Assembly (NCBI GenBank): GCA_017550525.1
Contig: JAFZOU010000016.1
Coordinates: 1-57,090 of the forward strand
Length of the DNA stretch: 57,090 bases
Direction: 5' to 3'
Source of the DNA: Bacteroidales bacterium
GTDB taxonomy: Bacteria; Bacteroidota; Bacteroidia; Bacteroidales; UBA932
Made by a program: the position numbers and the translations under genes. Below, piece by piece: positions 1 to 57,090 of this stretch (position 1 is its first letter; each line of letters starts with the position of its first letter). Below the pieces are notes generated by a model, which was given only the letters and a program-made list of their open reading frames with translations, did not search any database and had not been told where the DNA came from.

Positions 1-291
1 GAGGACTACTTCAAGGAGGACGGACTCCGTTATATCGTGAACCAGCCCCTCGTTCTCACCCAGACTGAAGGTCAGTTTGACATCAAGGTCACCATCGTCG
101 GTGGAGGTACCAAAGGTCAGGCAGAGGCCGTACGTCTCGGAATCGCCCGCGCACTTTGCGAGGTAGACAAAGAGGCTTACCGCGCCACCCTCAAGGCCGC
201 CGGATTCCTCACCCGTGACGCTCGCGAAGTTGAGCGTAAGAAGCCCGGTCAGCCTGGCGCACGTCGTCGCTTCCAGTTCAGCAAGCGTTAA
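1..291 (+). CDS. rpsI: 30S ribosomal protein S9, C-terminal part (5' end outside window)
   Basis: The reading frame is open from base 1 (E-D-Y-F-K...) and stops at 289–291, so only the last 96 residues of S9 are present. The end is typical of S9: [18 protein letters not shown], then a basic tail ending [11 protein letters not shown], which in this family reaches the ribosomal P-site tRNA. It acts in the small ribosomal subunit. rpsB and tsf follow on the same strand, and rplM is expected just upstream outside the window. The stop codon overlaps a copy of the over-represented word ATCGGCC (291–297). A frame at 215–463 over the end of this gene is an out-of-phase shadow. Confidence 0.97.
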
Positions 292-402
292 TCGGCCTGA
301 ACAATTTACGTCAGCACGGCTGCGGTATTCATCAAATCCTGAGATCCCGGTGAGGATGAGAATCTTCCTGAGGCTACAAAAAGGATTGCCGCACCGCGAA
401 AA

Positions 403-442
403 AATCCCGGAGACCAGTCAAGGACTGCTACTCACGGGGATT
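403..442 (+). promoter_or_regulatory. nested hairpin in the rpsI–rpsB spacer, possible rpsB leader structure
   Basis: The 187-nt spacer (292–478) has no convincing gene. It holds a nested stem: AATCCC (403–408) pairs with GGGATT (437–442), GGAG/CTC extend it, and an inner CAGTC (415–419) pairs with GACTG (423–427). There is no U-tract, so it does not look like a terminator. Ribosomal-protein leaders often bind their own product, so an S2-responsive leader is possible. That is inference; I recognise no named RNA family here. Confidence 0.35.
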
Positions 443-478
443 GATGAAAGAGTTATTATTTAGACAATCAGAAAAACC

Positions 479-1318
479 ATGTCAAGAACCAATTTTCAGG
501 AATTGCTCGATGCAGGCGCACACTTCGGCCACCTTGCCCGCAAGTGGAACCCTAAGATGGCTCCGTATATCTTCGACCAGAAGAACGGCATCCACATCAT
601 AGACCTGCACAAGAGCGTCGTCAAGATTGACGAGGCCACAGAGGTCCTTAAGGAAATGGCCCGCAGCGGCCGCAAGGTCCTCTTCGTTGCCACCAAAAAG
701 CAGGCAAAAGACGTCGTCGCCACCAAGGCTGCAGAGGTCAATATGCCTTCAGTGACGGAGCGTTGGCCCGGTGGAATGCTCACAAACTTCCCCACCATCC
801 GCAAGGCCGTCAAGAAAATGAACACCATCGACAAAATGAAGGAAGATGGCACCTTCGAGAAACTCGCAAAGCGTGAGCGCCTCCAGGTGGAACGTCAGCG
901 TGCAAAGCTGGAGAAGAACCTCGGTTCCATCCGCGACATGTCACGCCTTCCCAGCGCCCTCTTCGTGGTAGACGTCCAGAAGGAAGCAAATGCCGTTAAG
1001 GAAGCTGTCCGTCTGAACATCCCGGTAATCGCTATGGTTGACACATGTTGCGACCCCACCCCCATCGATTACGTGATTCCGGCCAACGACGATGCCACAA
1101 AGTCCATCGAACTCATTATGGACGTGATGTGCAAGGCTATCTCCGAAGGCCTTGAAGAGCGCAAGCTGGAGAAGGAGAAAGAGGCCGATGCAGCTCCCGT
1201 TGAGGAAGCCGCAGCAGAGGCCCCCGAGCGTAAGCTTCGTCCCCGTCGTGGCGCCAAGGCCGAAAAAGCCGAGGCTGCCCCCGCAGAGGAAGCCGCTCCT
1301 GCAGCAGAAGCAGAATAA
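479..1318 (+). CDS. rpsB: 30S ribosomal protein S2
   Basis: 279-residue S2, a component of the small ribosomal subunit. The N-terminus (FQELLDAGAHFGHLARKWNPKMAPYIF) and the central RWPGGMLTNFPTIRKAVKKM segment are diagnostic; SRLPSALFVVDVQKE and PVIAMVDTCCDPTPIDYVIPANDDA follow. After about residue 225 the protein runs into an Ala/Glu/Lys-rich tail of about 50 residues, a low-complexity extension beyond the bacterial S2 core. ATG at 479 is the natural start and directly precedes the S2 signature. tsf follows after 30 nt, so rpsB–tsf are probably co-transcribed and end at the hairpin at 2364–2393. Confidence 0.98.
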   Translation: MSRTNFQELLDAGAHFGHLARKWNPKMAPYIFDQKNGIHIIDLHKSVVKIDEATEVLKEMARSGRKVLFVATKKQAKDVVATKAAEVNMPSVTERWPGGMLTNFPTIRKAVKKMNTIDKMKEDGTFEKLAKRERLQVERQRAKLEKNLGSIRDMSRLPSALFVVDVQKEANAVKEAVRLNIPVIAMVDTCCDPTPIDYVIPANDDATKSIELIMDVMCKAISEGLEERKLEKEKEADAAPVEEAAAEAPERKLRPRRGAKAEKAEAAPAEEAAPAAEAE

Positions 1319-1348
1319 TTATTAACCGTTAAAAGCAAGTAAAAAGTT

Positions 1349-2341
1349 ATGGCTATTGCATTAGCAGACATCAAGAAGCTGCGTGATATGACCAGCGCCG
1401 GTATGATGGATTGCAAGAAGGCCCTTGAAGAAGCCGCCGGCGATTTCAAGCGTGCCGTTGAAATCCTTCGTGAAAAAGGAAAGTCCACCCTTGCAAAGCG
1501 TGGTGACAATGAAACCACTCAGGGTGCCGTTCTCAGCCGCATCAACGGCGGAAAGGCCATCCTCGTATGCCTGGGTTGTGAGACAGACTTCGTGGCCGCC
1601 ACCCCGGACTTCAAGAAGCTCGCAGGTGAGATTGCAGACGCAGCAATCACCGCTTTCCCTGCCTCCCTGGAGGATCTGAAGGCCGTGAAACTTGCAAGCG
1701 GTTATTCACTTGAGGAAGACATTACAAACCAGGCCGGTAAAACCGGCGAGAAGCACGTCCTGGCTTTCTACGGCGCCCTTGAGGCTCCGTTCGTGAGTGA
1801 GTACGTTCACTTCAATGGCAAGCTTGGCGCCATCGTGGCTTTCAACAAGGTGGTTCCCACTGAGATTGCCCGCGGTATCGCCATGCAGGTGGCTTCAATG
1901 AACCCCGTGGCCGTGGACGCAGAGTCCGTGCCCGCAGAGGTCATTGAGAGTGAGCGCACAGTTGCTATCCAGAAGACAAAGGACGAGCAAGTCCAGAAGG
2001 CAGTTGACGCCGCCCTCAAGAAGGCCGGTATCAACCCCGCCCACGTGGACAGCGAGGATCACATCGAATCCAACACCGCCAAGGGTTGGCTCACGCCCGA
2101 GCAGGCACAGCAGGCCCGTGAGATCATCGCCAAAGTCGGCGCAGAGAAAGCTGCGTCCCTCCCTGAGCAGATGATTATGGGTATTGTGAACGGCCGTATT
2201 CAGAAGTTCCTGAAGGAAAACACCCTTCTGGAGCAGGAATACCAGCTCTCTGATGACAAAGCCACAGTGGCTGCCGCTCTCAAGGCCGCAGACCCTGAGG
2301 CAAAGGTCCTTAGCTTCAAACGCTTCTCCCTTTCGGACTAA
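1349..2341 (+). CDS. tsf: translation elongation factor Ts
   Basis: 330-residue EF-Ts, the nucleotide-exchange factor that recycles EF-Tu·GDP in the cytoplasm. The N-terminal UBA-like segment (IKKLRDMTSAGMMDCKKAL) and the TDFVA motif (residues 79–83), which contacts EF-Tu, are intact. Later segments include the IAMQVASMNP stretch and the C-terminal EQEY region. It follows rpsB by 30 nt, the usual bacterial order, and is closed by a strong intrinsic terminator 23 nt after the stop. Neither rpsB–tsf spacer nor tsf itself shows the ATCGGCC word. Confidence 0.98.
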   Translation: MAIALADIKKLRDMTSAGMMDCKKALEEAAGDFKRAVEILREKGKSTLAKRGDNETTQGAVLSRINGGKAILVCLGCETDFVAATPDFKKLAGEIADAAITAFPASLEDLKAVKLASGYSLEEDITNQAGKTGEKHVLAFYGALEAPFVSEYVHFNGKLGAIVAFNKVVPTEIARGIAMQVASMNPVAVDAESVPAEVIESERTVAIQKTKDEQVQKAVDAALKKAGINPAHVDSEDHIESNTAKGWLTPEQAQQAREIIAKVGAEKAASLPEQMIMGIVNGRIQKFLKENTLLEQEYQLSDDKATVAAALKAADPEAKVLSFKRFSLSD

Positions 2342-2363
2342 AACCGAAACTCCTCAAAACAAA

Positions 2364-2393
2364 AACGGCACCCAAAAAGGTGTCGTTTTTTTT
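2364..2393 (+). terminator. intrinsic terminator after tsf
   Basis: AACGGCACC (2364–2372) pairs with GGTGTCGTT (2379–2387) with one G·U, around a 6-nt A-rich loop, followed by a run of T to 2393. It closes the ribosomal-protein/EF-Ts transcript. Confidence 0.9.
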
Positions 2394-2407
2394 GTATATT
2401 ATACAAA
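2391..2407. repeat. perfect 17-bp palindrome between tsf terminator and lipoprotein promoter
   Basis: TTTGTATA-T-TATACAAA reads the same on both strands. It starts in the T-tract of the tsf terminator and ends 17 nt before the −7 box at 2425–2432. It could be an operator for the lipoprotein gene or a by-product of AT-rich sequence; function unknown. Confidence 0.5.
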
Positions 2408-2424
2408 CGAAACGTTTTTTTGTT

Positions 2425-2432
2425 TACATTTG
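2425..2432 (+). promoter_or_regulatory. putative −7 box of the lipoprotein gene
   Basis: TACATTTG fits the Bacteroidota −7 consensus TAnnTTTG. It would give a leader of roughly 54 nt before the ATG at 2493. No good −33 TTTG at the usual distance is seen. Confidence 0.5.
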
Positions 2433-2492
2433 TATTTGACATACTAAAACATGGACACTTATAACCTCATTAATAACCAAAAAATTTAACAA

Positions 2493-5486
2493 ATGAAACG
2501 GTTTTTTAAATTTGCGCTTGTCGCATTAGCAACTGCAGCAGTAGCTGTAGCTTGCCAGAAGCCCGAGCAACAGCCGGAAAAGATTGCCCTCAAGGGTATT
2601 TCCCTTAACAAGGAGGCAGTTGAACTGGCAATTGGTGCGAAGGAAACACTTACCGTAAAGTATGACCCTGAAAACGCTACTGAAAAGCCCAAAGTGGAGT
2701 GGTCTACCTCTGCTCCCGCTGTGGCAACCGTCGCTGATGGCGAAGTAACAGCTGTGGCCGCAGGTGAAGCAACCATCACTGCAAAGGCCGGCTCCTTCAC
2801 CGCAACCTGTAAGGTTACAGTAAAGGGTGAAGAACAGCCCGAACCTGGCGATTTCACTAGCCCCAACTGGGCAAACATCGGTGCTATCACCAATGGCAAC
2901 CACACATTCAAGTTCACCAAGGATGACAAGAACGCCTACTTCTTCTCAGAGAGAACCAGCGAGGGTCGTTACAATGACATCTGGGGTGGTGAAGGTTATA
3001 TCTATTTCGCCCTTGACTTCGATAATGACCTTACAACAGGCGAAACACTGAACAATAATGGAAAGTATGAGTACATCGGCTACATTTTCTGCTTCGGTGA
3101 AAAACCCAAGGTGGAAATCGTAGCGGAAGGTGACTGCCTTCCCGCTACCTACACCGTTAAGAATGTTATTGCTAAGGGTACCGCAGACGACAACAGTGTT
3201 AAGGTTGAGTACTGCGTTCCTCTCGCAGACCTCCCTCAGCTTCCCGAGAACTTCACCATCTACACCTGGGGTAACAAGGATATGGCAAAGGTTATCTATA
3301 AGTATCCTTATGAGGCCCCTGCTGCTCCTGAGGTAGCTTCCTGGGCAGAGGCCGAGGCCGCTGGTGCCATCCATTTCTTCCAGTATCTTTCCGATGGTAA
3401 CTGGACTCCTTATCCCGGCTATGAAAGTGTAGAAGCTGCATCATTTGACAACCTCACAGTTGCCAATGGCGTTTATACAGTCACATTGGACAAGGTGTGC
3501 CCTGAGACTTGGAACGCACAGTTATTTATGCGCCCCAACCCGGAAATTGCCACCCTGCCTCTCAAGGCCAACAAGAGGTATCTTGTTTCCTTAACTATTG
3601 AATCAAGTGTAGAATACTCCCCCTTTGTAAAGTTCTGTCAGTATAAACCAGAACTTAATGATAATGGCGAGCCCAAGCACGAGGGCGCTACAATTTATGA
3701 ATGGGGAAGTGTTCACGTTAAAGCTAATACTCCTAAAACCCTTGCCTACGTATTTGAGGGGGTAGAATGCGACAACGTAAACTTCACCTTGGGACTTGGT
3801 GGTTACTCGGAGTCCACCACGGTTATTATCAAAGACGTCAAGGTTGAGGAGACAGACCATGAATTAGGTCTCATCGAGGATGATCCCGGTACAGTCGCAG
3901 AGCCTTGGGACTACACACCCAGCGAAGAATATCTGGCTGCTTCCAACCTCTGGAAATCCATCGATGATGCTGGCGCTTTAAGTTTCTTCTATCATTATCC
4001 TGCAGCAGGATACCCCGCTGCAAATGCTGACACATATGAGCTGCTTTCCAAGAATCAGTCCACGTATGTTCTCAATTGCCCCGTGGCAGCCGCAGAGGGA
4101 CTTTGGTCAAATCAGCTCTTCATGTATCCTAAGGAAGGCCACTTCATTGCCCTTGATCCCGCCAAGACTTACAAATTCAAGGTGACCCTTGGCAGTAACA
4201 AGGATTTCGCCGGTTTCTTCAAGATGACCACCTATAATCCTGATAATGTGAATAATCATGTAGAGGGTGCTTCATTATGGGAAACCAACTATGAGGACGG
4301 CTTCTTCTTTGACGGCGGAAAACCCGTTGTTGTAGAAACCGAGTTAACCGGCAAGGAAGCAAATAACATTGTCCTCATATTTGCATTTGGCAAGAACCCT
4401 TCAGAATGCGAAGTCTACATCAAGGATATCATCATTAGTGAAGTTGGTGGTGAAGAACCTCCCGTATCTGCTACAGTTGTAAAAGTAACCCCCGACCTTC
4501 TCCCTACCGCTTATGTGAAGGACGACGGCGGAAGTTATATTGAATCCAGAATTGCTTCAGGAGACGTCCAGTTCAACATCTTCACCGTAGCAAACTATGG
4601 TAACGGCATCCAGATCAGGAAGGAAGGTGGTTATGTATCCAATCATACCTCCTTCGGCAAGATTGAGAAGATCAAGGTGACTGTATTTGAAGGAAAGAGT
4701 TGGTATCCCTCAAATCTTGTGCTCTATGCTGGAACAGAAGAGAATCCTTCTGCAACTGTTATTGAAGCTTCTTCCGATGATGCTTCATCAACATTTGACC
4801 TCAGCGCCGGTGCTTATACTCACTTCACCCTTATGAACACAAGCACCTATGCTGTTTATCTTGACAATATCGAGGTTTCCTACACCGGTGATGCTGTCAC
4901 TCCTTCAGATCCCACACCAGCTGCAAACATCAAGCTCGATGGTGACTTATCAGATTGGGACGCTGTAGAAGGCGTAGAGGCTGGTTCCTTCAAGGATTTC
5001 AAGTTCGCATCTGATGCAGAGAACATCTACATGTACTTCAAGATCAAGCGTTCAAAGATTATTGCAGCTAAGACTGAGCCCTTCGTTTTCAACTGGAGGC
5101 GTTACATCGCATTCGGTATTGATGCAGACAACAATGCTGAGACCGGAACAGCCGTAACTTTCGCAGGTATGAATATTCCTGGTTGCGAAATTGGTGGCAA
5201 CTTCTATCCGTTCAGGGGAACAGCTTCTGAGGCAAGTGGTACTGACAACGTGGAGATTGTTAACGGTGTTGAGGAGCAGGGTGGTGTGACCACAGAGATT
5301 GGTTCCAATGTGCCGGACGGTGCCGAGAAGAAAGTTTCTGCTTTTGGTAAGGTTGACGATGAATTCGTTTATGTAGAAGCCGGCTTTGCAAGAGCAGATG
5401 TTGGCTCTCCTGCCGCAGGTACCATAAAGATTCAGCTTTCACTGGCTTGGGACCTCACAGACATTCTCGAGTACAGTCTTAAGTAG
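2493..5486 (+). CDS. multidomain surface lipoprotein (Big2-type Ig domain, duplicated CBM-like domains)
   Basis: 997 residues. An SPII signal ends in a lipobox with Cys21 (AVAVAC), so it should be lipid-anchored in the outer membrane. Residues about 33–112 are a bacterial Ig-like Big2 domain (KGISLNKEAVEL...VATVADGEVTAVAAGEATITA). Next comes a DOMON/CBM9-like beta domain (about 125–265). Two homologous domains (about 275–455 and 475–655) follow; both run from an AGA(I/L)-FF start through a QLFM(R/Y)P core to a V/Y-IIKD-V/I end, resembling CBM4/9-type sugar-binding folds. A further beta domain and a second DOMON-like domain (about 805–997) finish it. No catalytic motif is visible. It has its own promoter and terminator, so it is probably monocistronic. 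It may capture polysaccharide for the adjacent beta-galactosidase; that is inference. Confidence 0.8.
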   Translation: MKRFFKFALVALATAAVAVACQKPEQQPEKIALKGISLNKEAVELAIGAKETLTVKYDPENATEKPKVEWSTSAPAVATVADGEVTAVAAGEATITAKAGSFTATCKVTVKGEEQPEPGDFTSPNWANIGAITNGNHTFKFTKDDKNAYFFSERTSEGRYNDIWGGEGYIYFALDFDNDLTTGETLNNNGKYEYIGYIFCFGEKPKVEIVAEGDCLPATYTVKNVIAKGTADDNSVKVEYCVPLADLPQLPENFTIYTWGNKDMAKVIYKYPYEAPAAPEVASWAEAEAAGAIHFFQYLSDGNWTPYPGYESVEAASFDNLTVANGVYTVTLDKVCPETWNAQLFMRPNPEIATLPLKANKRYLVSLTIESSVEYSPFVKFCQYKPELNDNGEPKHEGATIYEWGSVHVKANTPKTLAYVFEGVECDNVNFTLGLGGYSESTTVIIKDVKVEETDHELGLIEDDPGTVAEPWDYTPSEEYLAASNLWKSIDDAGALSFFYHYPAAGYPAANADTYELLSKNQSTYVLNCPVAAAEGLWSNQLFMYPKEGHFIALDPAKTYKFKVTLGSNKDFAGFFKMTTYNPDNVNNHVEGASLWETNYEDGFFFDGGKPVVVETELTGKEANNIVLIFAFGKNPSECEVYIKDIIISEVGGEEPPVSATVVKVTPDLLPTAYVKDDGGSYIESRIASGDVQFNIFTVANYGNGIQIRKEGGYVSNHTSFGKIEKIKVTVFEGKSWYPSNLVLYAGTEENPSATVIEASSDDASSTFDLSAGAYTHFTLMNTSTYAVYLDNIEVSYTGDAVTPSDPTPAANIKLDGDLSDWDAVEGVEAGSFKDFKFASDAENIYMYFKIKRSKIIAAKTEPFVFNWRRYIAFGIDADNNAETGTAVTFAGMNIPGCEIGGNFYPFRGTASEASGTDNVEIVNGVEEQGGVTTEIGSNVPDGAEKKVSAFGKVDDEFVYVEAGFARADVGSPAAGTIKIQLSLAWDLTDILEYSLK

Positions 5487-5511
5487 TAATCTTTACATCA
5501 TAGATAAACTG

Positions 5512-5549
5512 ACCCCCGGAAGTTTAATTCTTCCGGGGGTTGTTTTTTT
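5512..5549. terminator. terminator between convergent lipoprotein gene and beta-galactosidase
   Basis: ACCCCCGGAAG (5512–5522) pairs perfectly with CTTCCGGGGGT (5530–5540) around TTTAATT, followed on the plus strand by TGTTTTTTT. It terminates the lipoprotein gene and may also serve the convergent gene, whose stop lies inside the T-tract at 5548–5550. Confidence 0.9.
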
Positions 5550-8508
5550 AGTATATGTTCTTGCTTGGTTTCCTTGAAGGAAGGAGCGTGAAGGAGTAAG
5601 AATAACTTTCATCGCTCCAAAGGGTGTAGGCTGGTTCCGGGCGGGCGCCCCAGCTGTCATAACCGCCTATTCCGCTCATGCGGTAGTCTATGCATACCTC
5701 CGTGAAATCATTGAACGGAACATCCGTAATGTGAGTCTGGCTCTTCTTAAGGCCGCCGTCAAGGTCCTCAATGGTCTGCCTAAGGGCATTGAATTCAAAC
5801 AGTCCCTGAACGGTGATTCCGCCTATGCTGAGCCAGTTCACATCAGTGTGGTGACCGCATTCCTGAGGCCTTACATAAGGATAGTATTCCTTTGATGCCG
5901 CGCTCTTGAATATACTCTTGAAGGTGCAGGAAGCCCTGTCCCAGTAGTTCTCCACCGGGCCGCGGCCAAAGTATGAGAAGGCGTCATCGGCCACTCGGAA
6001 CCTTACGCCAAGGCGGGGGATTTCAATGCCCTTGAGAGTAGGCTCCGCGGCGGTTTCTACCTCAATCTTTATGGTGCCGTCAGGGAATACGGTCCAAACC
6101 TCGGATGCCCTTACGCCCTGACCCTTCACGAGGATACGGACAGTGCCATCGGCCTCTTCTGCCTTTACAGCAATGGGCTTCCAGGCTTCCTTATATATAG
6201 AGGTGCGCTCCGGGGCGAGGTTGCCGTAGTCGTTGTCAATGGGCGCGCGCCAGTAGTTTGGCCTGATGCCGAATGACGGGTCCACAACGTCCTTTCCACC
6301 CACCTTCCAGCTCTTCACGCAGCCCCATTCCTTGTTGAAGACAAGTTCTACCTTCTGGCCGCGCACAACAATCTGGGTATCTCCGTCAGTGAAGCTCACA
6401 GAACGCTTTACCAGCACTTTTTCCTGGGCCGATGTATCCTTGATGAAGATCTCGTCGCAGGCGTCTTCCGTAGTGAAGAAAATGCGGTACTGGCCGGGCT
6501 TCTTCATTCGGGGAAGGCGAACCTTGAATTCCTGGTATTCCTGGGGGGCGACATTGAGCTTTACCTTGCCCTTTGCAAGGAAGATGCGCTTGCCGTCACG
6601 CTCTACCCACCATTTGAGTTTTACGCCATTCACAGTGGTGAAATAGTAGCGGTTAAATACCTGGAAGATGCCGTTTTCAAGGTCTTTGGCGGTTACGCTC
6701 AGGTTCTGGTGGATGTGCTTCACTTCATAGAAAGCGGGATGAGGGTCACGGTCAGGATTCACTATACCGTTGCAGCAGAAATTGGCATCGGACGGGGGAT
6801 TCCCTCCATAGTCTCCGCCGTAGGTCCAGCCGCATTTTTCGTCGTACAGGCCCTGGTCCACCCAGTCCCAGATGAAGCCGCCCTGAAGGTGGGTATGGCC
6901 GTAGAACTGCTCCCACATAAGGTCCATGGAGCCGTTGGAATTACCCATGGCGTGGGTATATTCGCAAAGCACAATGGGACGGGCGCTGTAGGTTTCACCC
7001 ATTTTCTTGAGCCAGCGAGTATCCGGGTACATAGGATTGATGAAGTCGGTATTATGCTCAAACTCCGCCCTCTCATATACTACAGGCCTGTTCTGGCCGT
7101 CTTTCTCAAGGGATTTCAGGAGCTTGTAGGTCTCATAGAAGTTTACGCCGTTACCCGCCTCGTTGCCAAGGGAGAGGATGGTGACGCAGGGGTAATTGGC
7201 CGTACGCCTGTACATGTTGAGGGTGCGGTCAATGTGCTTTGTGAGCCATTCCGGCTTGTTTCCAAGGGTTTGGCTGAGGTTATATCCCATACCATGGCTT
7301 TCAATGTTGCATTCGTCGTACACGTAGAAGCCAAGGGAGTCACAGAGCTCATAGAACTCGCGCGGCTGGGGATAGTGGCAGGTGCGGATGGCGTTTATGT
7401 TGGCCTTTCTCATGAGGAGAAGGTCCTCAAGTATGTTCTGCTTTGTGGTATAATGGCCGGTGTAGGGGTTGTGCTCATGGAGGTTTACGCCCTTGAACTT
7501 GACGGGCTGGCCGTTCACAAGGAAAGCGTGGACCAGGCGGCCGTCAGTATCGGGAACCTCCTTTATCTCAAGCCTGCGGAATCCCACGTGGAAGCGGGTG
7601 TACTCTCCGTTAACCCTGAGAAGGAGTGAGTACAGCTCCGGGGTTTCGGCGCTCCAGCGGCGTACGGAAGGGATAGTGTCCGTAACCGTTGCCATAGAGC
7701 CGCTGAACTCGAAGATTGCATCGGCCACGGCGGTCCCGTCCTTGTCAAGAAGCTCGTAGAACACCTCCACGGGCTCCTTGGAGTTCATCCTCAGTTTGAA
7801 GATACCGGTCTGAAGGTCCTCGTCAAGGGTGGAAATGACACTGAAATCAAAACCGGTATCGGCCTTCTCGCTTGAAAGATACACGTCTCTTTCAATGCCG
7901 CTTATGCGCCAGAAATCCTGATCTTCAAGATATGAGGCTGCGGTATAACGGTAGATCTTGAGCTTCAGCTCATTCTCACCGGGCTTCAGATACTGTGTAA
8001 TATTATAGCGGTGCAGGCTCTTGGAGTCCTCTCCGTAGCCCACCTCCTCTCCGTTCACATACACATATGTGCCGCTCTTGGTGCCGCAGAGGTTGAGGAA
8101 TACCTCACGGCCGGCCCAGCCTTCCGGAACGGTGAAAGTCCTGTGATAGACGCCTGCCGGGAAGGATTCCGGCAGCATTGGCGGCTGCGGATTCTCCGGA
8201 CAGAAGTCGTAGGGGATATTGGTGTAATAGGCATATCCGTAGCCCTGGATTTCCCAGTTTCCGGGAACCTTGATCCTGTCCCAACTGGCGGGCTCAAGAG
8301 TGAGGTCATTATAGTCCTCAAAGTACTTGAAGTCCCATATACCGTTGAGGTCTACGTAGTTCTCACTCTCACGGAAACCCTTCCTGAGGGCGTCCTCACG
8401 GTTTGCATAATAGATTACTTCAGTGCGTTTTGTCTCTGCATTTACGGAAGTTGCCTGCATGTCCTGCCAGAGGGGAAGGACCGCTGCGGCTAGTAGTATA
8501 AGATTCAT
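5548..8508 (-). CDS. glycoside hydrolase family 2 beta-galactosidase (LacZ type), exported
   Basis: 986 residues, full LacZ length. Domain order is signal-like N-terminus (MNLILLAAAVLP, about 24 residues), GH2 sugar-binding jelly roll, Ig-like domain, TIM barrel, and a C-terminal beta-galactosidase small-chain domain. Catalytic motifs are intact: SLGNEAGNG with acid/base Glu450, and PIVLCEYTHAMGNS with nucleophile Glu516; NIESHGMGY and GGFIWDWVDQGL also match. It should hydrolyse terminal beta-D-galactosides, probably in the periplasm. No SusC/D pair is adjacent, so this is not a classical polysaccharide utilisation locus. It has its own −7 box just after the MATE stop, so it can be expressed apart from rsgA–MATE. 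Exact substrate unknown. Confidence 0.93.
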   Translation of the reverse strand: MNLILLAAAVLPLWQDMQATSVNAETKRTEVIYYANREDALRKGFRESENYVDLNGIWDFKYFEDYNDLTLEPASWDRIKVPGNWEIQGYGYAYYTNIPYDFCPENPQPPMLPESFPAGVYHRTFTVPEGWAGREVFLNLCGTKSGTYVYVNGEEVGYGEDSKSLHRYNITQYLKPGENELKLKIYRYTAASYLEDQDFWRISGIERDVYLSSEKADTGFDFSVISTLDEDLQTGIFKLRMNSKEPVEVFYELLDKDGTAVADAIFEFSGSMATVTDTIPSVRRWSAETPELYSLLLRVNGEYTRFHVGFRRLEIKEVPDTDGRLVHAFLVNGQPVKFKGVNLHEHNPYTGHYTTKQNILEDLLLMRKANINAIRTCHYPQPREFYELCDSLGFYVYDECNIESHGMGYNLSQTLGNKPEWLTKHIDRTLNMYRRTANYPCVTILSLGNEAGNGVNFYETYKLLKSLEKDGQNRPVVYERAEFEHNTDFINPMYPDTRWLKKMGETYSARPIVLCEYTHAMGNSNGSMDLMWEQFYGHTHLQGGFIWDWVDQGLYDEKCGWTYGGDYGGNPPSDANFCCNGIVNPDRDPHPAFYEVKHIHQNLSVTAKDLENGIFQVFNRYYFTTVNGVKLKWWVERDGKRIFLAKGKVKLNVAPQEYQEFKVRLPRMKKPGQYRIFFTTEDACDEIFIKDTSAQEKVLVKRSVSFTDGDTQIVVRGQKVELVFNKEWGCVKSWKVGGKDVVDPSFGIRPNYWRAPIDNDYGNLAPERTSIYKEAWKPIAVKAEEADGTVRILVKGQGVRASEVWTVFPDGTIKIEVETAAEPTLKGIEIPRLGVRFRVADDAFSYFGRGPVENYWDRASCTFKSIFKSAASKEYYPYVRPQECGHHTDVNWLSIGGITVQGLFEFNALRQTIEDLDGGLKKSQTHITDVPFNDFTEVCIDYRMSGIGGYDSWGARPEPAYTLWSDESYSYSFTLLPSRKPSKNIY

Positions 8509-8533
8509 AGCGTTCTTAGTGTGGTTAATTACA

Positions 8534-8541
8534 CAAAGATA
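8534..8541 (-). promoter_or_regulatory. −7 box of the beta-galactosidase gene
   Basis: Read on the minus strand this is TATCTTTG, a perfect TAnnTTTG box, 26 nt before the ATG. It lies in the 37-nt gap downstream of the MATE gene. A TTG further upstream (about 23 nt) may be the −33 element. Confidence 0.7.
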
Positions 8542-8545
8542 GTCA

Positions 8546-10036: not shown

Positions 10037-10052
10037 TTCGTTCAGAATGACA
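10026..10052. repeat. 27-nt dispersed repeat, diverged copy at the MATE start
   Basis: Matches the repeats at 29916–29942 and 36492–36518 at 25 of 27 positions (AGATTCTTC-CTTCG-TCAGAATGACA). On the minus strand it contains the GTG start and first codons of the MATE gene and fills the gap to rsgA. Confidence 0.75.
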
Positions 10053-10053
10053 G

Positions 10054-10977: not shown

Positions 10978-11016
10978 TCGTCGGGAAAAAATCCCTGCTC
11001 GTTGATTAATCTTTCA

Positions 11017-11024
11017 CAAAGATA
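11017..11024 (-). promoter_or_regulatory. −7 box of rsgA
   Basis: TATCTTTG on the minus strand, 40 nt before the rsgA ATG. A TTTG lies 23 nt further upstream (11048–11051), slightly farther than the usual −33 spacing. Confidence 0.7.
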
Positions 11025-11033
11025 GTTTATTGT

Positions 11034-11064
11034 TTTGTAAGTCGGTACAAAATAGCTAAATTTA
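11034..11064 (+). promoter_or_regulatory. promoter of malQ
   Basis: TTTG (11034–11037), 19 nt, then TAAATTTA (11057–11064), one base off TAnnTTTG. Spacing is ideal for a Bacteroidota sigma-ABfr promoter. It overlaps the divergent rsgA promoter region, so the two may affect each other. Confidence 0.6.
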
Positions 11065-11084
11065 ATGGCTTAATAACACGCATT

Positions 11085-25053: not shown

Positions 25054-25085
25054 AAAGGCCGGTTTAGTAAAATCGGCCTTTTTTG
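25054..25085 (+). terminator. terminator of pgk
   Basis: AAAGGCCG (25054–25061) pairs with CGGCCTTT (25074–25081), then T-run. The 3' arm includes the over-represented word ATCGGCC (25072–25078). Confidence 0.88.
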
Positions 25086-25103: not shown

Positions 25104-26081
25104 ATGAAACGCTTTTTTGTAGCCACACTACTACTGATAGCCGCCATCCCTGCATTTTCGCAGGTGAAACAGCTTTATGGGGAGACCCGCCTTGGGTATG
25201 AGGCTGCCAGTAACGGCGGCCAGTATGCCGGTAATGTCAGGGCAGATTACCTCAGCCTTATTCTGGATGGTAATATCGGCCCCAATATATCTTTTTTCTG
25301 GCGTCAGCGCTTTACAAAGCCGCTTTACAACCCCAATATCCCCCTCAACGCCACGGACCATCTCTGGATAAGGTGGGACATCAATGATCACTGGGCCATC
25401 CAGGGCGGCAAAGTGCCCATTATGGTGGGCAGTTTTGAATTTGACGACGCCCCCATAGACCTCTATTACTGGGGCATGTTTGCAGACCGGATGCCGGACG
25501 TTTATGCAATTGGCGGCAATGTCATTTGCAAGATAACGCCAGCGCAGACCCTGCTCCTGCAGTTCACGCAGTCTCCTCTTGGCTTTGGCTACAATGACCT
25601 CTTCCACGCCGGTCTCATTTGGTATGGACGCATAGCCCCATGGTGGAACACCATCTGGAGCGTCAACTGGATGGATGATCCTACCCATAGCGGCTTTATG
25701 ATTGCAGGCCTTGGCAACCGGATGGAGTTTGGCCGCTTTGGCCTTGAACTGGATGCCCTCTACCGTACCGGCCTTGCAAAGGATTATTTATCGGCCGATT
25801 ATTCCGCCATCCTGAAACTGGAGTACAAGTTCCCGGTTGTTACTCTCTTTACCAAGGGCAGTTTTGACTACAACAAGGATTTTGCAGAGGATTTTGTCCC
25901 TGACCATTCCCGCTTTCTGACTGTTGGCGGCGGCGTGGAGGTGTTCCCGCTTAAAAACGACGACATCCGCCTGCATGCCGTCTACTGGACCAATTCAGAT
26001 GCGGCGTGCTCAAACTTCGGGCACCACTTTGCCTTTGGTATTACTTATCGGCTGCGGGTGATAAGAAATCTTCCTCAATAA
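25104..26081 (+). CDS. porin-like outer-membrane beta-barrel protein
   Basis: 325 residues with a clear SPI signal (MKRFFVATLLLIAAIPAFSQ). The mature part alternates hydrophobic and polar residues with many aromatic girdle residues (SLILDGNIGPNISFFWRQRF, WAIQGGKVPIMVGSFEFDDAPIDLYYWG, RFGLELDALYRTG, AVYWTNSDA), as in OprO/P-type porins. It should form an outer-membrane channel; solute unknown. The last strand (HHFAFGITYRL) is followed by a short tail RVIRNLPQ whose 41 nt overlap the 3' end of the convergent RNase R gene. Confidence 0.78.
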   Translation: MKRFFVATLLLIAAIPAFSQVKQLYGETRLGYEAASNGGQYAGNVRADYLSLILDGNIGPNISFFWRQRFTKPLYNPNIPLNATDHLWIRWDINDHWAIQGGKVPIMVGSFEFDDAPIDLYYWGMFADRMPDVYAIGGNVICKITPAQTLLLQFTQSPLGFGYNDLFHAGLIWYGRIAPWWNTIWSVNWMDDPTHSGFMIAGLGNRMEFGRFGLELDALYRTGLAKDYLSADYSAILKLEYKFPVVTLFTKGSFDYNKDFAEDFVPDHSRFLTVGGGVEVFPLKNDDIRLHAVYWTNSDAACSNFGHHFAFGITYRLRVIRNLPQ

Positions 26082-31230: not shown

Positions 31231-31366
31231 GGGCAACGATTTACACGTTTTCCTCCATTTTTGTGCATTTCATTGACCAAATGGGCAACGAAAAACACGA
31301 AATCGGCCTTTTTTGTGCGTCTCGTTGCCCCGAACGGGCCGCGGCTGCCAAAAATTGCGTATCTTT
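31231..31366 (+). repeat. 136-bp dispersed repeat, copy 2 (tandem 52-nt palindrome plus −7 box)
   Basis: Same element as 28065–28200 but in the opposite orientation, so the two copies form inverted repeats around the protease, rdgB and recO genes. Units start at 31231 and 31283 with GGGCAACGA (52-nt period). It ends in AAATTGCGTATCTTT, giving the −7 box of the next gene. An open frame from 31261 (MCISLTKWATK) runs through it into the polyprenyl synthase gene. Confidence 0.92.
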
Positions 31367-42880: not shown

Positions 42881-43008
42881 ATCTTGTTTTGTTTATTTTC
42901 CGGACCGCTAAATTAACTATTTTTTTTCTTCTTTCGAGTCGAAAATCTAGACAAATTCTGGACAAAGTGGTCATATTCACCACAACTTGTTATTTATTAA
43001 TGCGTTAC

Positions 43009-43041: not shown

Positions 43042-43076
43042 TGAGAACATAGCCAAATCCACAATCAATTAATAAT

Positions 43077-44900: not shown

Positions 44901-44914
44901 TAAAAGTACCGCAT

Positions 44915-47320: not shown

Positions 47321-47351
47321 ACCCACTCACAGAAGATAATAATTACACAAT

Positions 47352-50321: not shown

Positions 50322-50325
50322 GTTT

Positions 50326-52755: not shown

Positions 52756-52767
52756 ACGGAATAAGCT

Positions 52768-54729
52768 ATGAGAAGAATATTTACATATATTGCAGCAGCG
52801 CTCCTCGCAGGAGCAGCATTCAGCGCCTGTTCCGTCAAAGAAACAGCCAATGACAGCCTCGGCAGCAGGGAAATAAAATTCACTGCTTCAGTGGGTCAGT
52901 TCCAGACAAAGGCCGATGAGGCCCAGGTTGAATCAATCGGCCTGTTTGTCTATGGTCCCTACTCCAGCCAGCTTAATAAGCGTCTGGACATCGTGGAAGG
53001 CGCTGTTATCCCGTCCGAGCCCATTCTCTGGGATGCGGAGCAGTACGTTGAACAGCCTTCCCGTTTCATCGCGTATTTCCCGTATGACCCCGAGCGTGAA
53101 GACCTTTGGGCAGATTATTTTGTCAAGCAGGATCAGAGCACTCTTGAGGCTTATAAGGCTTCGGACCTTCTGATTGCCGATACGGAGAGTGCTCCGGCCG
53201 ACGGTACCGTACACCTCAGCTTCGTACACAAGTTCACGCAGGTTACGCTTGTCATAGACAACCTTGTCAACGATGAGGAAATTGTGGAAGCGTACTTTAA
53301 TAACGTGTGGATTGGCGCCAGAGGATCGGAATTGGAGTACGGTAGTATGTCCGGAGACCTTGAGCAGGCTTCCGTGAAGATGCTCCCCGTGCTTCTTGAA
53401 AACGGCTCCCGCGCCTGGAGTATGATTATCCCCGGTCAGTCTATGTCTAACCCCAGCATTACAGTGGTTACCGCTTCCGGCACCCGCCTTTCCACCAGCT
53501 ACGACTACCAGTATTTCAGGGGCGGCGCCAGTTATGTGGGCACTGCGGACCTTGTCCCGGAACAGGAAATCGGCAACCTTGACTTCGGTGAGGAGATTGC
53601 CGATTGGAACGAAGGTTGGGATATGGAATTCCCCAACCAGGGCCAGGATCCCGGCTGGGCCGTTGTGAGCGGCACATGGAGCTTAATCGGCGACATGGAC
53701 GGCTGGGAGAAGGATCATAATTTGGAGGTTGGCGATGGCTTCATACGCTACATTACCATCGAGCTTCGCAAAGACCAGTGCTTCAAGTTCCGTCAGGGCG
53801 GCTCCTGGGACTACAACGACCTCGGCTTTGATGCCGATTGGGACGGCACAACGCACTATATGCAGGAAGGCCAGATGAATCTCCGCCTCAAGGGCCAGGA
53901 CATCTATGTCCCCACCAGCGGTCTGTGGTATCTCCAGGTTAATCTTGAAAAGCTAACTCTGTACGCCTATCTTATGGAGGAGTATCCGGACAACCCGGAT
54001 CCCGACCCCGATCCTCAGACAGATGTCTGGAGCCTGATTGGCTCAATGACCGATTGGGTCGGTGACATCGATATGACGGCCGGAGCCGACGGTGCCACTT
54101 ACGATTTAACCATTGAGCTTGCCAAAGGCGACGAATTCAAGTTCCGTAAGAATGCTGATTGGGACCAGGGCGACCTGGGCGCAAATGCCTCCAACAATAC
54201 GCTCACAGAGGGAACTATGCTACTGTTGGCCAAGGGTGCCAACATTGCGGTGGCCCAAAGCGGCAAATGGCATCTTGTCCTGGATCCTGGTACCCCCAGT
54301 CTGGAGGTAGAACTGGTTGAGGCTTATACAGACCCTGATGATCCGGATCCCGAGCAGCCCACACAGCCCGTTTGGAGCGTTATCGGCTCAATGAACGGCG
54401 AGGAATGGGGCGTAGACCACGTCTTTGAACTCGTCACAACAGACTTTGGCGATGTCTTGTATTACATTGAGATAGATCTTCAGGAAGGCGATGAGTTCAA
54501 GTTCCGCAAAGATTATAGCTGGACTGTCAACTTCGGCTATAACGGAGATGATAATCCCTATGTCTTCCCGGACAGCCTTATCATCTGGTCCGATGAGTCC
54601 ACATATGATGTTCCGGACATTTCGCTTGCCCTTAGCGGCAGTAACTTCTGTGCCCCCTCTTCCGGCACCTGGTCCATTGAGCTCTATCCCGATGAATACG
54701 CTTGTATAATGTACAGGCAGCAGGATTAG
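52768..54729 (+). CDS. fimbrillin-family lipoprotein with three SusE/SusF-like starch-binding repeats
   Basis: 653 residues. Lipobox Cys21 (AFSAC). Residues about 30–285 are fimbrillin-like (FQTKADEAQVESIGLFVYG; SDLLIADTESAPADGTVHLSFVHKFTQVTLVI). Three C-terminal repeats begin W-(S)-(L/V)IG-(S/D)M at about residues 304, 424 and 535. Each continues with a strand pair and the motif (E/K)-F-KFR-(K/Q), then a late strand with SG-W-L, as in SusE/SusF carbohydrate-binding domains. It probably binds alpha-glucan or a related glycan at the cell surface. Last gene of the cluster, followed by a terminator. Confidence 0.83.
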   Translation: MRRIFTYIAAALLAGAAFSACSVKETANDSLGSREIKFTASVGQFQTKADEAQVESIGLFVYGPYSSQLNKRLDIVEGAVIPSEPILWDAEQYVEQPSRFIAYFPYDPEREDLWADYFVKQDQSTLEAYKASDLLIADTESAPADGTVHLSFVHKFTQVTLVIDNLVNDEEIVEAYFNNVWIGARGSELEYGSMSGDLEQASVKMLPVLLENGSRAWSMIIPGQSMSNPSITVVTASGTRLSTSYDYQYFRGGASYVGTADLVPEQEIGNLDFGEEIADWNEGWDMEFPNQGQDPGWAVVSGTWSLIGDMDGWEKDHNLEVGDGFIRYITIELRKDQCFKFRQGGSWDYNDLGFDADWDGTTHYMQEGQMNLRLKGQDIYVPTSGLWYLQVNLEKLTLYAYLMEEYPDNPDPDPDPQTDVWSLIGSMTDWVGDIDMTAGADGATYDLTIELAKGDEFKFRKNADWDQGDLGANASNNTLTEGTMLLLAKGANIAVAQSGKWHLVLDPGTPSLEVELVEAYTDPDDPDPEQPTQPVWSVIGSMNGEEWGVDHVFELVTTDFGDVLYYIEIDLQEGDEFKFRKDYSWTVNFGYNGDDNPYVFPDSLIIWSDESTYDVPDISLALSGSNFCAPSSGTWSIELYPDEYACIMYRQQD

Positions 54730-54750
54730 CCCTTCGGCCCCTCTACCTAA

Positions 54751-54784
54751 AACCCGCGAAGCCCTCCGGCCCCGCGGGTTTTTT
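54751..54784 (+). terminator. terminator of the fimbrillin cluster
   Basis: AACCCGCG (54751–54758) pairs with CGCGGGTT (54773–54780), followed by a T-run to 54784. It closes the five-gene run. Confidence 0.88.
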
Positions 54785-54811
54785 GTTACGCATCATTTCA
54801 CAAAAAATGCG

Positions 54812-54819
54812 TATCTTTG
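54812..54819 (+). promoter_or_regulatory. −7 box of dxs, nearly leaderless
   Basis: TATCTTTG, with its last base 7 nt before the dxs ATG, the same spacing as at 16515–16522. Confidence 0.7.
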
Positions 54820-54825
54820 TAAGCT

Positions 54826-56703
54826 ATGTATAAGCTTTTGGAAAAGATTGATTCCCCGGAAGACCTCCGTAAACTGCCTAGGAAAAAGCTGGAGGAAGTA
54901 TGCAGGGAACTCAGGGATTATATGGTGGAGTGCTGCAGCGTCAACCCCGGTCACCTTGGCTCAAGCCTTGGCGCCGTGGAGCTGATAGTGGCTCTCCATT
55001 ATATATATAATACGCCCGAAGATAAAGTTGTCTTTGACGTGGGGCATCAGGCCTACGCCCATAAAATCCTCACCGGACGCAGGGAACTTTTCCGTAAAAA
55101 CCGTATGAGGGACGGCATCAGCGGTTTCCCCAAGATGGACGAAAGCCCCTACGACGCCTTTGGCGCAGGTCATTCCTCCACGTCAATATCGGCCGCGCTT
55201 GGATTTGCAGAAGCTGCAAGGCTCACGGGCGCAACATACAAATCCGTTGCCGTGATAGGTGACGGCGCCATGACGGGCGGCCTGGCGTGGGAAGGCCTCA
55301 ACAACGCCGGCTCCTCCAAGGCCGATATCCTTGTGATCCTCAACGACAACGACATCTCCATAGACCGTAACCTTGGCGGCCTGCACGACTACCTCCTAAG
55401 GGTTACCACATCCCAAACCTACAACAGGGTGAAGCGTGGAATATGGAACCGCCTTGGAGAAGGAAAACTCCGTGACTGGATCCAGAAGCGGGTTATAGAC
55501 ACCAAGGCAAACATTGTCCGCTCCAGCGGCGGGGCCCTCTTCGAAGCCCTCGGGTTCAGGTACTTCGGCCCCATCGACGGCAATGATATCGGCCAGATGG
55601 TCTCCGTCCTTTCCCGCATAAAGGACCTTCACGGCCCCCGTATCCTTCATCTTCATACCCGTAAGGGCGCGGGATACGCTCCCGCAGAGGAAGACCCTAC
55701 AACATGGCACGCTCCCGGAAAGTTTGACGCCGCCACGGGTACCCGCCTTAAGACCGTAAATGCCCCGGACCGCTATCAGGATGTATTCGGTAAGGTCCTT
55801 GTGGAACTTGCGGCAAAGGATTTCCGCGTGGTGGGCATCACTCCCGCCATGGCCTCCGGCTGCGGGATGAACCGCCTCCAGGATGCCTTCCCGGAAAGGT
55901 TCTTTGACGTGGGCATTGAGGAAGGCCATGCTGTCACATTCTCTGCCGGCCTTGCCGCTACGGGCCTAAGACCCTTCTGCAACATCTATTCATCGTTCTC
56001 CCAGAGGGCGTACGACAACATTATCCACGACGTAGCCCTCCAGAACCTTCCAGTCACCATGTGCCTGGACAGGGCTGGCCTGGTGGGGGAAGACGGCGCC
56101 ACCCATACCGGAGCGTTCGACCTTTCCGCATTCCGCTGCATTCCAAACGTGGTGATATCGGCCCCAAGGAATGAACTTGAGCTTAGGAATCTCATGTACA
56201 CAGCCCTGGAGTATCCAGGCGGGCCGTTTTTCATCCGCTACCCCCGCGGTTACGGAGAGGGCATGGACTGGGAAAAGGCCGATGCCTCCCCGCTTCCCGT
56301 AGGAAAGGGAGAGTGCCTTATGAAGGGGAAGGGCGTTGCCGTCCTTGCCCTTGGCCCCGTCGCTAACAGGGCCCTTGAGGCTGCACAGCGTCATAAGGCC
56401 GATTATTGGGTGGGGCCCTCCGTCTATGATCTCCGCTTCCTGAAGCCCCTTGATCTTGACATCCTGGAGGAAGTATCCTCTTGCAAGGCCATCCTTACCT
56501 TGGAGGACGGCAGCCTCAAGGGTGGTCTCTATGGCGCCGTAAGCGAGTTTTTTGCCGCCAGGCCGGATGCTCCTATAATTAAAGGTGTAGGCATCCCGGA
56601 CAAATTTGTGGTGCAGGACTCCCAGAAAGCTCAGCGTGAGGAGTGCAGTCTGGATACAGAATCCATCTTCGATCTTCTTAGGGAGATGATGAAAAATGTT
56701 TAA
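54826..56703 (+). CDS. dxs: 1-deoxy-D-xylulose-5-phosphate synthase
   Basis: 625 residues, full length. It condenses pyruvate and glyceraldehyde 3-phosphate with thiamine diphosphate, the first step of the MEP isoprenoid pathway. The TPP motif GDGAMTGGLAWEGLNNAG (Gly145 on) ends in NDNDISI (about 173–179). HLGSSLGAVELIVALHY, FDVGHQAYAHKILTGR and GFPKMDESPYDAFGAGHSSTSISAALG are typical, as are the transketolase central domain (FFDVGIEEGHAVTFSAGLA) and C-terminal domain. It supplies isoprenoids to the polyprenyl synthase and menG products encoded elsewhere in the window. Confidence 0.98.
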   Translation: MYKLLEKIDSPEDLRKLPRKKLEEVCRELRDYMVECCSVNPGHLGSSLGAVELIVALHYIYNTPEDKVVFDVGHQAYAHKILTGRRELFRKNRMRDGISGFPKMDESPYDAFGAGHSSTSISAALGFAEAARLTGATYKSVAVIGDGAMTGGLAWEGLNNAGSSKADILVILNDNDISIDRNLGGLHDYLLRVTTSQTYNRVKRGIWNRLGEGKLRDWIQKRVIDTKANIVRSSGGALFEALGFRYFGPIDGNDIGQMVSVLSRIKDLHGPRILHLHTRKGAGYAPAEEDPTTWHAPGKFDAATGTRLKTVNAPDRYQDVFGKVLVELAAKDFRVVGITPAMASGCGMNRLQDAFPERFFDVGIEEGHAVTFSAGLAATGLRPFCNIYSSFSQRAYDNIIHDVALQNLPVTMCLDRAGLVGEDGATHTGAFDLSAFRCIPNVVISAPRNELELRNLMYTALEYPGGPFFIRYPRGYGEGMDWEKADASPLPVGKGECLMKGKGVAVLALGPVANRALEAAQRHKADYWVGPSVYDLRFLKPLDLDILEEVSSCKAILTLEDGSLKGGLYGAVSEFFAARPDAPIIKGVGIPDKFVVQDSQKAQREECSLDTESIFDLLREMMKNV

Positions 56704-56708
56704 AAAAG

Positions 56709-56740
56709 TTTGGCGGATTCAAAAAAAGTAGCTACCTTTG
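56709..56740 (+). promoter_or_regulatory. promoter of the tRNA cluster
   Basis: TTTG (56709–56712), 20 nt, then TACCTTTG (56733–56740). Both elements fit the Bacteroidota consensus well. It starts 6 nt after the dxs stop and precedes tRNA-Thr by 32 nt. Confidence 0.8.
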
Positions 56741-56772
56741 CAGTCCTTTAAGAAGTTAGAGGGCTTATGAGC

Positions 56773-56846
56773 GCCGATATAGCTCAGTTGGCCAGAGCAC
56801 GTGATTTGTAATCTCGGGGTCGTGGGTTCGAATCCCTCTATCGGCT
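56773..56846 (+). tRNA. tRNA-Thr (anticodon UGU)
   Basis: 74 nt without CCA. Acceptor GCCGATA/TATCGGC is perfect; D arm GCTC/GAGC; anticodon loop TTTGTAA gives UGU, reading ACA; T loop TTCGAAT. Two stems each contain a U·U mismatch: anticodon stem CGTGA/TCTCG and T stem GTGGG/CCCTC. First of three tRNAs. Confidence 0.95.
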
Positions 56847-56882
56847 CAAAAAGGGGCTTTGACATATTGTAAAGCAACATTT

Positions 56883-56963
56883 GGGAGGTTCGCATAGTGG
56901 CAATTGCGGCGGACTGTAAATCCGCTCCCTCAGGGTTCGGTGGTTCGAGTCCACCACCTCCCA
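56883..56963 (+). tRNA. tRNA-Tyr (anticodon GUA)
   Basis: 81 nt, class II with a long variable arm. Acceptor GGGAGGT/ACCTCCC, anticodon stem GCGGA/TCCGC around CTGTAAA (anticodon GUA), T arm GGTGG-TTCGAGT-CCACC, discriminator A. All stems pair. Confidence 0.97.
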
Positions 56964-56981
56964 CAAATGCAAAAAAAGGTG

Positions 56982-57023
56982 GAGCTACTTCCGCCGATTT
57001 TTGCAAATCGGCGGAAGTAGCTC
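56982..57023. repeat. perfect 19-bp inverted repeat overlapping the 5' part of tRNA-Gly
   Basis: GAGCTACTTCCGCCGATTT (56982–57000) is the exact reverse complement of 57005–57023, loop TTGC. The right arm is 6 nt of leader plus tRNA-Gly nucleotides 1–13, so the pre-tRNA leader can pair with the tRNA's own acceptor strand and D-arm. Confidence 0.95.
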
Positions 57024-57083
57024 AGTTGGTAGAGCATCAGCCTTCCAAGCTGAGGGTCGCGAGTTCGAACCTCGTTTTCCGCT
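57011..57083 (+). tRNA. tRNA-Gly (anticodon UCC)
   Basis: 73 nt. Acceptor GCGGAAG/TTTCCGC (one G·U), D arm GCTC/GAGC, anticodon stem TCAGC/GCTGA around CTTCCAA (anticodon UCC, reads GGA/GGG), T arm CGAG-TTCGAAC-CTCG. Third of the cluster; its leader is complementary to its 5' end. Confidence 0.95.
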
Positions 57084-57090
57084 CTTAGAA

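Follow-up and report, generated by a model that had tools for sequence, protein, structure and literature searches.

We analysed a 57,090-nucleotide stretch of a Bacteroidales bacterium draft assembly (GCA_017550525.1, contig JAFZOU010000016.1, positions 1 to 57,090; hereafter the window), which holds rpsI, rpsB, tsf and pgk among its genes and is scattered with a seven-base word, ATCGGCC, or GGCCGAT when read on the other strand. The word is hyperabundant in the window and in the whole genome, and it recurs in related species with altered spellings. What is new here is that copies in the same orientation avoid one another at distances below 300 bp, without any such avoidance between copies in opposite orientations.

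Abundance and placement of ATCGGCC

The window contains 103 copies of the word (54 on the plus strand and 49 on the minus strand), compared with a mean of 9.65 and a maximum of 17 among 100 dinucleotide shuffles. ATCGGCC ranks first among all 7-mers of the window, both by raw count and against an order-2 Markov expectation (8.7). An earlier note on this DNA, made from the letters alone, had estimated about 100 copies, roughly half in each orientation and about tenfold in excess, and had suggested the Markov comparison; these counts agree with it. Across the draft genome (2,380,099 bases, 136 contigs) the word occurs 3,596 times (1,800 plus, 1,796 minus), a density of 1.51 per kb, compared with 227 copies of the reversed word as a control, so a genome-wide count near expectation, which would have undone the claim, was not what we found. 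As a separate feature of composition, CTAG is strongly depleted in the window (16 compared with 115.5 expected, both strands counted), and GATC and CATG are also low.

The plus-strand copies have their first bases at positions 291, 5986, 6148, 7720, 7858, 9950, 11375, 12818, 14273, 14861, 15001, 15477, 17353, 17971, 18680, 21461, 23184, 23550, 24542, 25072, 25275, 25790, 26641, 27481, 28805, 30238, 31302, 31879, 32451, 35309, 35492, 35825, 37049, 37154, 38589, 38784, 39234, 40101, 40638, 40990, 43493, 43853, 45101, 45466, 46738, 47645, 47765, 50270, 51144, 52443, 52936, 55188, 55588 and 56157. The minus-strand copies, which appear as GGCCGAT on the plus strand, have their lowest coordinates at 1183, 6427, 8651, 8741, 9107, 9290, 9556, 10354, 12272, 13696, 13936, 15049, 16120, 16147, 20881, 22240, 22941, 24076, 24859, 25793, 26553, 26863, 28123, 28962, 30728, 30941, 32007, 32223, 33188, 34358, 35540, 35960, 36898, 38419, 39071, 41686, 42250, 42311, 43925, 44447, 45208, 45847, 49472, 51243, 52113, 52911, 55320, 56277 and 56397.

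The pressure acts on the DNA itself, as the earlier note had argued, and the genome-wide excess is joined here by the result of synonymous-codon permutation: 200 permutations of the window gave 12.4 copies on average and never more than 21, compared with 100 coding copies observed (one of which, at rpsI, actually overlaps a stop codon, and another, at 31302, lies in an open reading frame (ORF) with a doubtful start). Read on the coding strand, these are 53 ATCGGCC and 47 GGCCGAT in several frames, and the three peptide contexts previously named, Ile-Gly-x, Ser-Ala and Ala-Asp, are indeed the main ones, with 18, 35 and 43 copies, respectively. The word fills 18 of 22 permitted Ile-Gly-x sites, 43 of 80 xAla-Asp sites and 35 of 85 xSer-Ala sites in the window; the corresponding fractions in stretches of four word-rich genomes are 241/322, 455/873 and 275/859. 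TCG is a rare serine codon in the window (96 of 1,041), yet TCG GCC encodes 42 of the 108 Ser-Ala pairs. The word stands at 269 of 1,072 Ser-Ala pairs in the stretches of the four word-rich genomes, compared with 3 of 807 in word-poor stretches. The permutation and this use of the word at Ser-Ala pairs rule out a codon or peptide explanation, including a codon-pair preference for Ala-Asp and Ser-Ala.

Outside called ORFs we counted 42 copies in 36.8 kb, compared with 4.6 expected, a figure that is supportive only, as it includes word copies within a dispersed inverted repeat and some that look coding. Dipeptide usage (observed/expected) differs slightly between word-rich and word-poor genomes, at 1.06 versus 0.88 for Ile-Gly and 1.04 versus 0.93 for Ser-Ala, and the word pressure may nudge protein composition to that small degree. 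ATCGGCC is very probably a DNA-level signal and not an artefact.

The core of the word is TCGGC, and its flanks in the window are weak, with G preceding 7 and A or T following 72 of the 103 copies. One-letter deviants at the ends are raised in the group of the window's own genome (set H; observed/expected, TTCGGCC 82/46.9, ATCGGCA 168/25.5 and ATCGGCG 73/23.1), and 14 of the 15 inner neighbours occur at no more than 1.10 times expectation, the remaining one at 1.23 times. Set H2, from another word-rich group, additionally has an excess of three inner neighbours, all at position 4 (1.57–2.50). Single-letter conversion of the Vsr type was considered and finds no support, there being no one position with selectively emptied inner neighbours.

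Several individual sites singled out in the earlier note could be located precisely. The plus-strand copy at 291–297 starts on the last base of the stop codon of rpsI (TAA, 289–291; identified by Pfam Ribosomal_S9), and in the pgk terminator the copy at 25072–25078, also on the plus strand, makes up the 3′ arm of the stem (AAAGGCCG ... CGGCCTTTTTT). Two copies overlap head to head at 25790–25799 to form the palindrome ATCGGCCGAT. A copy does lie in the core of an inverted repeat (GGGCAACGA ... TCGTTGCCC), one base further on than had been reported (31302–31308, plus strand, and not from 31301), where it is covered by an ORF that would start with TTG at 31261. Inverted copies acting as terminators are uncommon: a TTTT run follows 5 of the 42 copies that lie outside called ORFs, and 3 of these also have an upstream arm.

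Both word-free regions had also been described correctly. No copy occurs at 1190–5985, which spans the end of rpsB, tsf, a gene for a 997-amino-acid Big_2-domain protein and the end of the next gene, and none lies between 33195 and 34357, where GC content drops to 0.385 near 33.8 kb. The Big_2-domain gene (2493–5486) has zero copies and a lower GC content (0.47) and was possibly acquired recently. Elsewhere in the genome (G000), contig C9 carries the dispersed inverted repeat mentioned above, with the word at both ends and a length of about 37 bp in three of four places (near 3296–3332 and 5737–5773 of locus L139, and near 57188–57224 and 104158–104231 of C9).

Clade distribution, dialects and conservation

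Few of 149 genomes examined from the family have high counts. The comparison with related genomes that the earlier note had proposed was made across 400 genomes of the genus, which contain 18 to 4,066 copies with forward and reverse counts about equal; 41 of them reach at least 2,000 (counted by hand), and two dialects, TTCGGCC and ATCGGCA, were found. Relatives named through pgk are Bacteroidales or Bacteroidia metagenome-assembled genomes, mostly from ruminants, and two are labelled Prevotellaceae; we infer that the genus corresponds to Prevotella taken broadly. A tree of pgk with 74 rows (the window and 73 of 80 loci) contains word-rich and word-poor groups with reversals, and a threshold of one copy per kb requires 10 changes.

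The word is a clade trait with spellings that differ between related species. In genome G543 (locus L051) TTCGGCC leads with 3,128 copies versus 1,702 of ATCGGCC; its near relatives G539, G540 and G541 have 591–799 copies of TTCGGCC and 2,518–3,900 of ATCGGCC, and G542 is intermediate (1,093 and 1,942). ATCGGCA leads in G548 (2,678 versus 1,702 copies of ATCGGCC) and G549 (2,409 versus 1,447), and is raised but behind ATCGGCC in G544 (2,001 versus 2,478) and G547 (2,267 versus 2,961). We take G544 and G329, which agree in their counts and in the length of contig C191, to be one genome. Milder enriched words were seen in other species of the genus, in 80 kb each (L019–L022 of G129 and L007–L010 of G022), among them CATATTC, 69 versus 18.4, and TCAGGGA, 54 versus 18.0.

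Copies are conserved in excess of controls between near relatives. A first set, limited to plus-strand matches with 3,000 or more aligned bases, retained 47 of 80 loci; in seven near relatives (L043–L049), 115 of 159 aligned window copies are intact, compared with about 72 predicted from matched control positions (summed over rows). Most word-poor relatives keep window copies at about the control level, and the TTCGGCC relative L051 keeps 5 of 16 (0.31 compared with 0.33 for the control). In a second set, limited to alignments with 1,000 or more bases and an identity of 84% or higher, 168 of 213 copies are kept (0.79), compared with 0.49–0.67 for 10 control words; the window's genome has 45 copies that the relative lacks, and the relative has 53 that the window's genome lacks. 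In both sets several relatives align to the same stretch of the window. Divergence shows no word-specific drop beside copies, at about 0.114 within 40 bp and 0.093–0.096 at 150–1200 bp; around control words, values within 20 bp scatter from 0.067 to 0.137.

Orientation-specific spacing

Spacing was compared with a null model in which words are placed on peptide-permitted sites only, counting pairs 7–300 bp apart. Over four genomes there are 194 same-orientation pairs compared with 255.5 expected, and 274 opposite-orientation pairs compared with 268.2; under nulls that fix local density, the same-orientation depletion has z = −3.7 to −4.3. It appears in the window's genome (82 versus 110.1, P = 0.007), in the three other genomes (112 versus 144.6, P = 0.010) and at other loci (99 versus 129.0, P = 0.012), and the TTCGGCC dialect of G543 has the same sign (12 versus 23.3, P = 0.022). 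This pattern was first noticed by inspection, and orthologous loci in these early sets are not independent. A prespecified prediction was borne out in 382 kb of sequence new to the polarity tests (same-orientation 96 versus 117.0, P = 0.010; opposite 131 versus 119.1). For two of the contigs in this set, neighbouring pieces had been examined earlier, and the set includes G430, a near relative of the window's genome, some of whose copies are possibly orthologous to earlier ones.

Across all 1.04 Mb (1,591 coding words), pairs closer than 300 bp number 290 versus 356.1 in the same orientation (z = −4.3) and 405 versus 396.3 in opposite orientations. At 300–1000 bp, same-orientation pairs are as expected (861 versus 838.1) and opposite pairs are in excess (941 versus 863.8); opposite pairs closer than 50 bp number 58, compared with 58.8 expected. 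None of eight control words had a significant same-orientation depletion (lowest z = −1.5). The controls lean the opposite way, towards a same-orientation excess and an opposite-orientation deficit (for CAAGGCC, 34 opposite pairs versus 51.8, P = 0.010).

Neighbouring copies likewise favour opposite orientations over the same one (298 versus 222 in the window's genome; 603 versus 491 over four genomes). The coefficient of variation (CV) of same-strand gaps is 0.967, compared with 1.054 (s.d. 0.025) when orientations are permuted, and none of 1,000 permutations was as low. The copies taken all together are not regularly spaced: the CV of all gaps is 1.09 and 1.03 in a first analysis, 1.00 and 0.92 in a second, and 0.95–1.20 by genome. 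An apparent strong plus-strand polarity of ATCGGCA on one contig (G548:C2) was a listing artefact, and two 20-kb stretches there give 9/9 and 16/15.

These results suggest that the word is read directionally by some machinery. Mutation or codon bias alone would not be expected to keep same-direction copies apart, nor would uptake that disregards orientation; what the evidence favours is a reader with a direction, or a mark on one strand, whose effect saturates at short range.

Candidate readers and known systems

We favour, with a probability of roughly 35%, the reading that the word serves an AddAB-like helicase-nuclease as its Chi-type signal. ATCGGCC would be a short non-palindromic signal, read one way, which weak, persistent selection or molecular drive may have brought near saturation across the genomes of the clade. 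The presumed reader would be an AddAB-type enzyme that handles the ends of broken DNA or of DNA entering the cell. A break or fragment has two ends, each of which would need a copy facing its way, hence both orientations, and a second nearby copy in the same direction would add little; word-bearing fragments would be kept and recombined, not degraded, and the word would thereby drive its own spread. A balanced orientation is compatible with Chi if the enzyme has to act from each of these ends. The window's genome encodes an AddB-like PD-(D/E)XK protein of 920 amino acids (family PDDEXK_1) and a RecB/AddA-like UvrD helicase of 989 amino acids, and the word is over-represented, as a Chi would be. 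In one study (PMC5443536), a chi array cut degradation by Caulobacter AddAB in the forward orientation only, with a chi efficiency of about 20%.

Several results weigh against an AddAB-like reader. The AddA-like and AddB-like proteins score below the NCBIfam equivalog cut-offs for AddB, AddA and RecB. In a comparison of five gene families between 12 word-rich and 12 word-poor genomes, PDDEXK_1 was found in 11 and 12 genomes, respectively, so the AddB-like protein is not special to word-rich genomes. A sequence search of the PDB reached no AddB, and the Chi-contact residues could therefore not be mapped. No AddB residue could be tied to dialect: excluding seven duplicate genomes and one fragment, 98 columns split G543 from four relatives that use ATCGGCC, 9 of them otherwise at least 80% conserved and none interpretable. 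The depletion range, below about 300 bp, is shorter than naively expected for a Chi read at 20% efficiency. The depletion is a non-significant trend in the ATCGGCA dialect (52 versus 63.4, P = 0.167), and neighbours do not alternate in G266 (50 opposite, 52 same) or G406 (78 and 76) taken alone. Nor is orientation skewed by strand along contigs: a dispersion test on 893 words from 25 stretches, made without a mapped origin, gives χ² = 12.4 (P = 0.983) and a majority-strand fraction of 0.54. On this last point the earlier note, which took equal orientation as an argument against a strand-polar role, was right at the scale of contigs; at short range, orientation does matter to spacing. Leading-strand polarity is a Chi criterion in Proteobacteria according to PMC8022716, which also lists non-polarised candidates.

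The arrangement of the two genes differs between the groups. Where both were matched, the addA-like and addB-like genes are adjacent in all 10 word-poor genomes, whereas 9 of 10 word-rich genomes have them on separate contigs or with 19–20 kb between them. The exception, word-rich G329 (2,478 copies of ATCGGCC), keeps them side by side, and we therefore rejected separation as a requirement for the word; it is at most a clade marker. AddB-like ORFs are shorter in word-rich genomes (920–961 amino acids in 11 genomes, compared with 939–1054 in 9 word-poor genomes).

Rather unlikely, in our judgement, is that a directional DNA-binding or translocating factor of this clade, previously undescribed and acting in nucleoid organization, segregation, defence or self-marking, reads the word. 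In its favour are the DNA-level and polarity evidence, for which no known reader was found, and the recurrence of the trait across many species with a shifting spelling; however, no candidate reader gene emerged among the five families compared between the 12 word-rich and 12 word-poor genomes, and chromosome polarity of the FtsK type is unsupported, given the lack of skew. The fuller form of this idea, a hyperabundant direction-read word with dialects as a new processing or self-identity mark with its own reader, and neither Chi, uptake sequence nor highly iterated palindrome (HIP), is doubtful to the same degree.

Repair guided by a mark, with an asymmetric methyltransferase or other marking enzyme recognizing the word on one strand and mark-biased repair creating and keeping it, seems to us unlikely as well. 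Elhai reportedly proposed mark-biased repair for the cyanobacterial HIP1 words, which are palindromic. If only one strand were marked, redundancy would depend on orientation; spellings also change between relatives. HIP1 density is 300–2,700 per Mb (PMC4390886), a range into which 1.51 per kb falls, and one-letter deviants are commonest at the ends, as in set H. Against this, the m5C (5-methylcytosine) methyltransferase family PF00145 has no association with the word (5 of 12 word-rich, 6 of 12 word-poor genomes). The N6/N4 methyltransferase family PF01555 goes in the wrong direction (2 of 12 versus 9 of 12; 1 versus 8 over the cut-off), with PF02384, PF07669, MmeI and BREX outside the comparison. 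Repair made more accurate by the word might be expected to lower divergence around it, and no such reduction is seen; the raised position-4 neighbours of set H2 depart from the end-concentrated pattern. ATCGGCC itself is not palindromic, and the palindromic decamer ATCGGCCGAT was counted just 3 times over 144 kb of the window's genome. Of the candidates listed earlier, modification is thus unsupported for these two methyltransferase families, and uptake by the known pilus route is weakened by the lack of PF00437 matches over the cut-off in word-rich genomes, given below.

Uptake or self-recognition, in which word-bearing DNA would be preferentially taken up or kept in natural transformation and spread by molecular drive with Neisseriaceae-like dialects, is improbable. 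Density (about one copy per kb), scattered genic placement, occasional placement at terminators and clade dialects resemble the DNA uptake sequences (DUS) described in PMC3630211. The check for com genes proposed earlier found a ComEC-family match in 12 of 12 word-rich genomes (and in 11 of 12 word-poor genomes). In the window's genome, however, ComEC is short (320 amino acids, domain positions 1–169 of 270, continuing in a different frame; L172, 9041–10003). In word-rich genomes the type IV pilus/secretion ATPase family PF00437 never passes the cut-off (0 of 12, compared with 3 of 12 word-poor genomes; pilins were not searched), and 11 of these 12 have only short sub-threshold matches near E = 1e-4, so the pilin-receptor route of DUS, or of uptake signal sequences, appears to be without its motor. 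Redundancy regardless of orientation is also absent, as the opposite pairs closer than 50 bp show. The ComEC-type match crosses a stop codon in 16 of the 23 genomes with a match.

Neutral context-dependent mutation or codon-pair bias without function is very improbable: overall spacing is near random (CV of all gaps 1.10 pooled), but orientation-specific avoidance, excess conservation between relatives and high occupancy reached through several different letter changes would all be unexpected.

Among the matches listed in open-licence literature, no title or opening of an abstract described this word or hyperabundant words in Bacteroidota, and no title a Chi signal for Bacteroidota. To our knowledge, the hyperabundant words described so far come mainly from cyanobacteria (HIP1) and two bacterial families capable of natural transformation. 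The word described here adds a further case, from abundant uncultured rumen bacteria, with dialects and a measurable one-way spacing rule. It makes the question of function, drive or mutation testable, with the dialects as natural reader–signal pairs, and if AddAB is the reader, the word would be a Chi signal for Bacteroidota.

ATCGGCC shares features with four known systems and differs from each of them in others. KOPS (FtsK orienting polar sequences) are strand-skewed along each replication arm; ATCGGCC is likewise a short non-palindromic word in a genome with an FtsK gene, but has no strand skew along contigs. HIP1 and the alternate HIPs of cyanobacteria (GCGATCGC and others), as described in PMC4390886, occur at 0.3–2.7 copies per kb, vary most at their ends and are replaced by other words in some relatives. 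ATCGGCC is similarly short, dense, variable at the ends and replaced in some relatives; unlike HIPs, which are palindromic and have cognate methyltransferases, it is non-palindromic, orientation-sensitive and untracked by PF00145 and PF01555. The DUS of Neisseriaceae (PMC3630211) are present in thousands of copies with dialects that track phylogeny, and ATCGGCC also has thousands of copies and dialects among relatives; it differs in having no pilus motor over the cut-off, in its orientation-specific redundancy and in its 7 letters, compared with the 10-mers of DUS. With Chi, as read by RecBCD or AddAB, it shares a short, non-palindromic, over-represented sequence, a spacing that suggests polar reading and the presence of AddAB-like genes; it lacks strand polarity and, at about 1.5 copies per kb, is far denser than the Chi of E. 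coli, for which PMC8022716 gives one copy per 5 kb.

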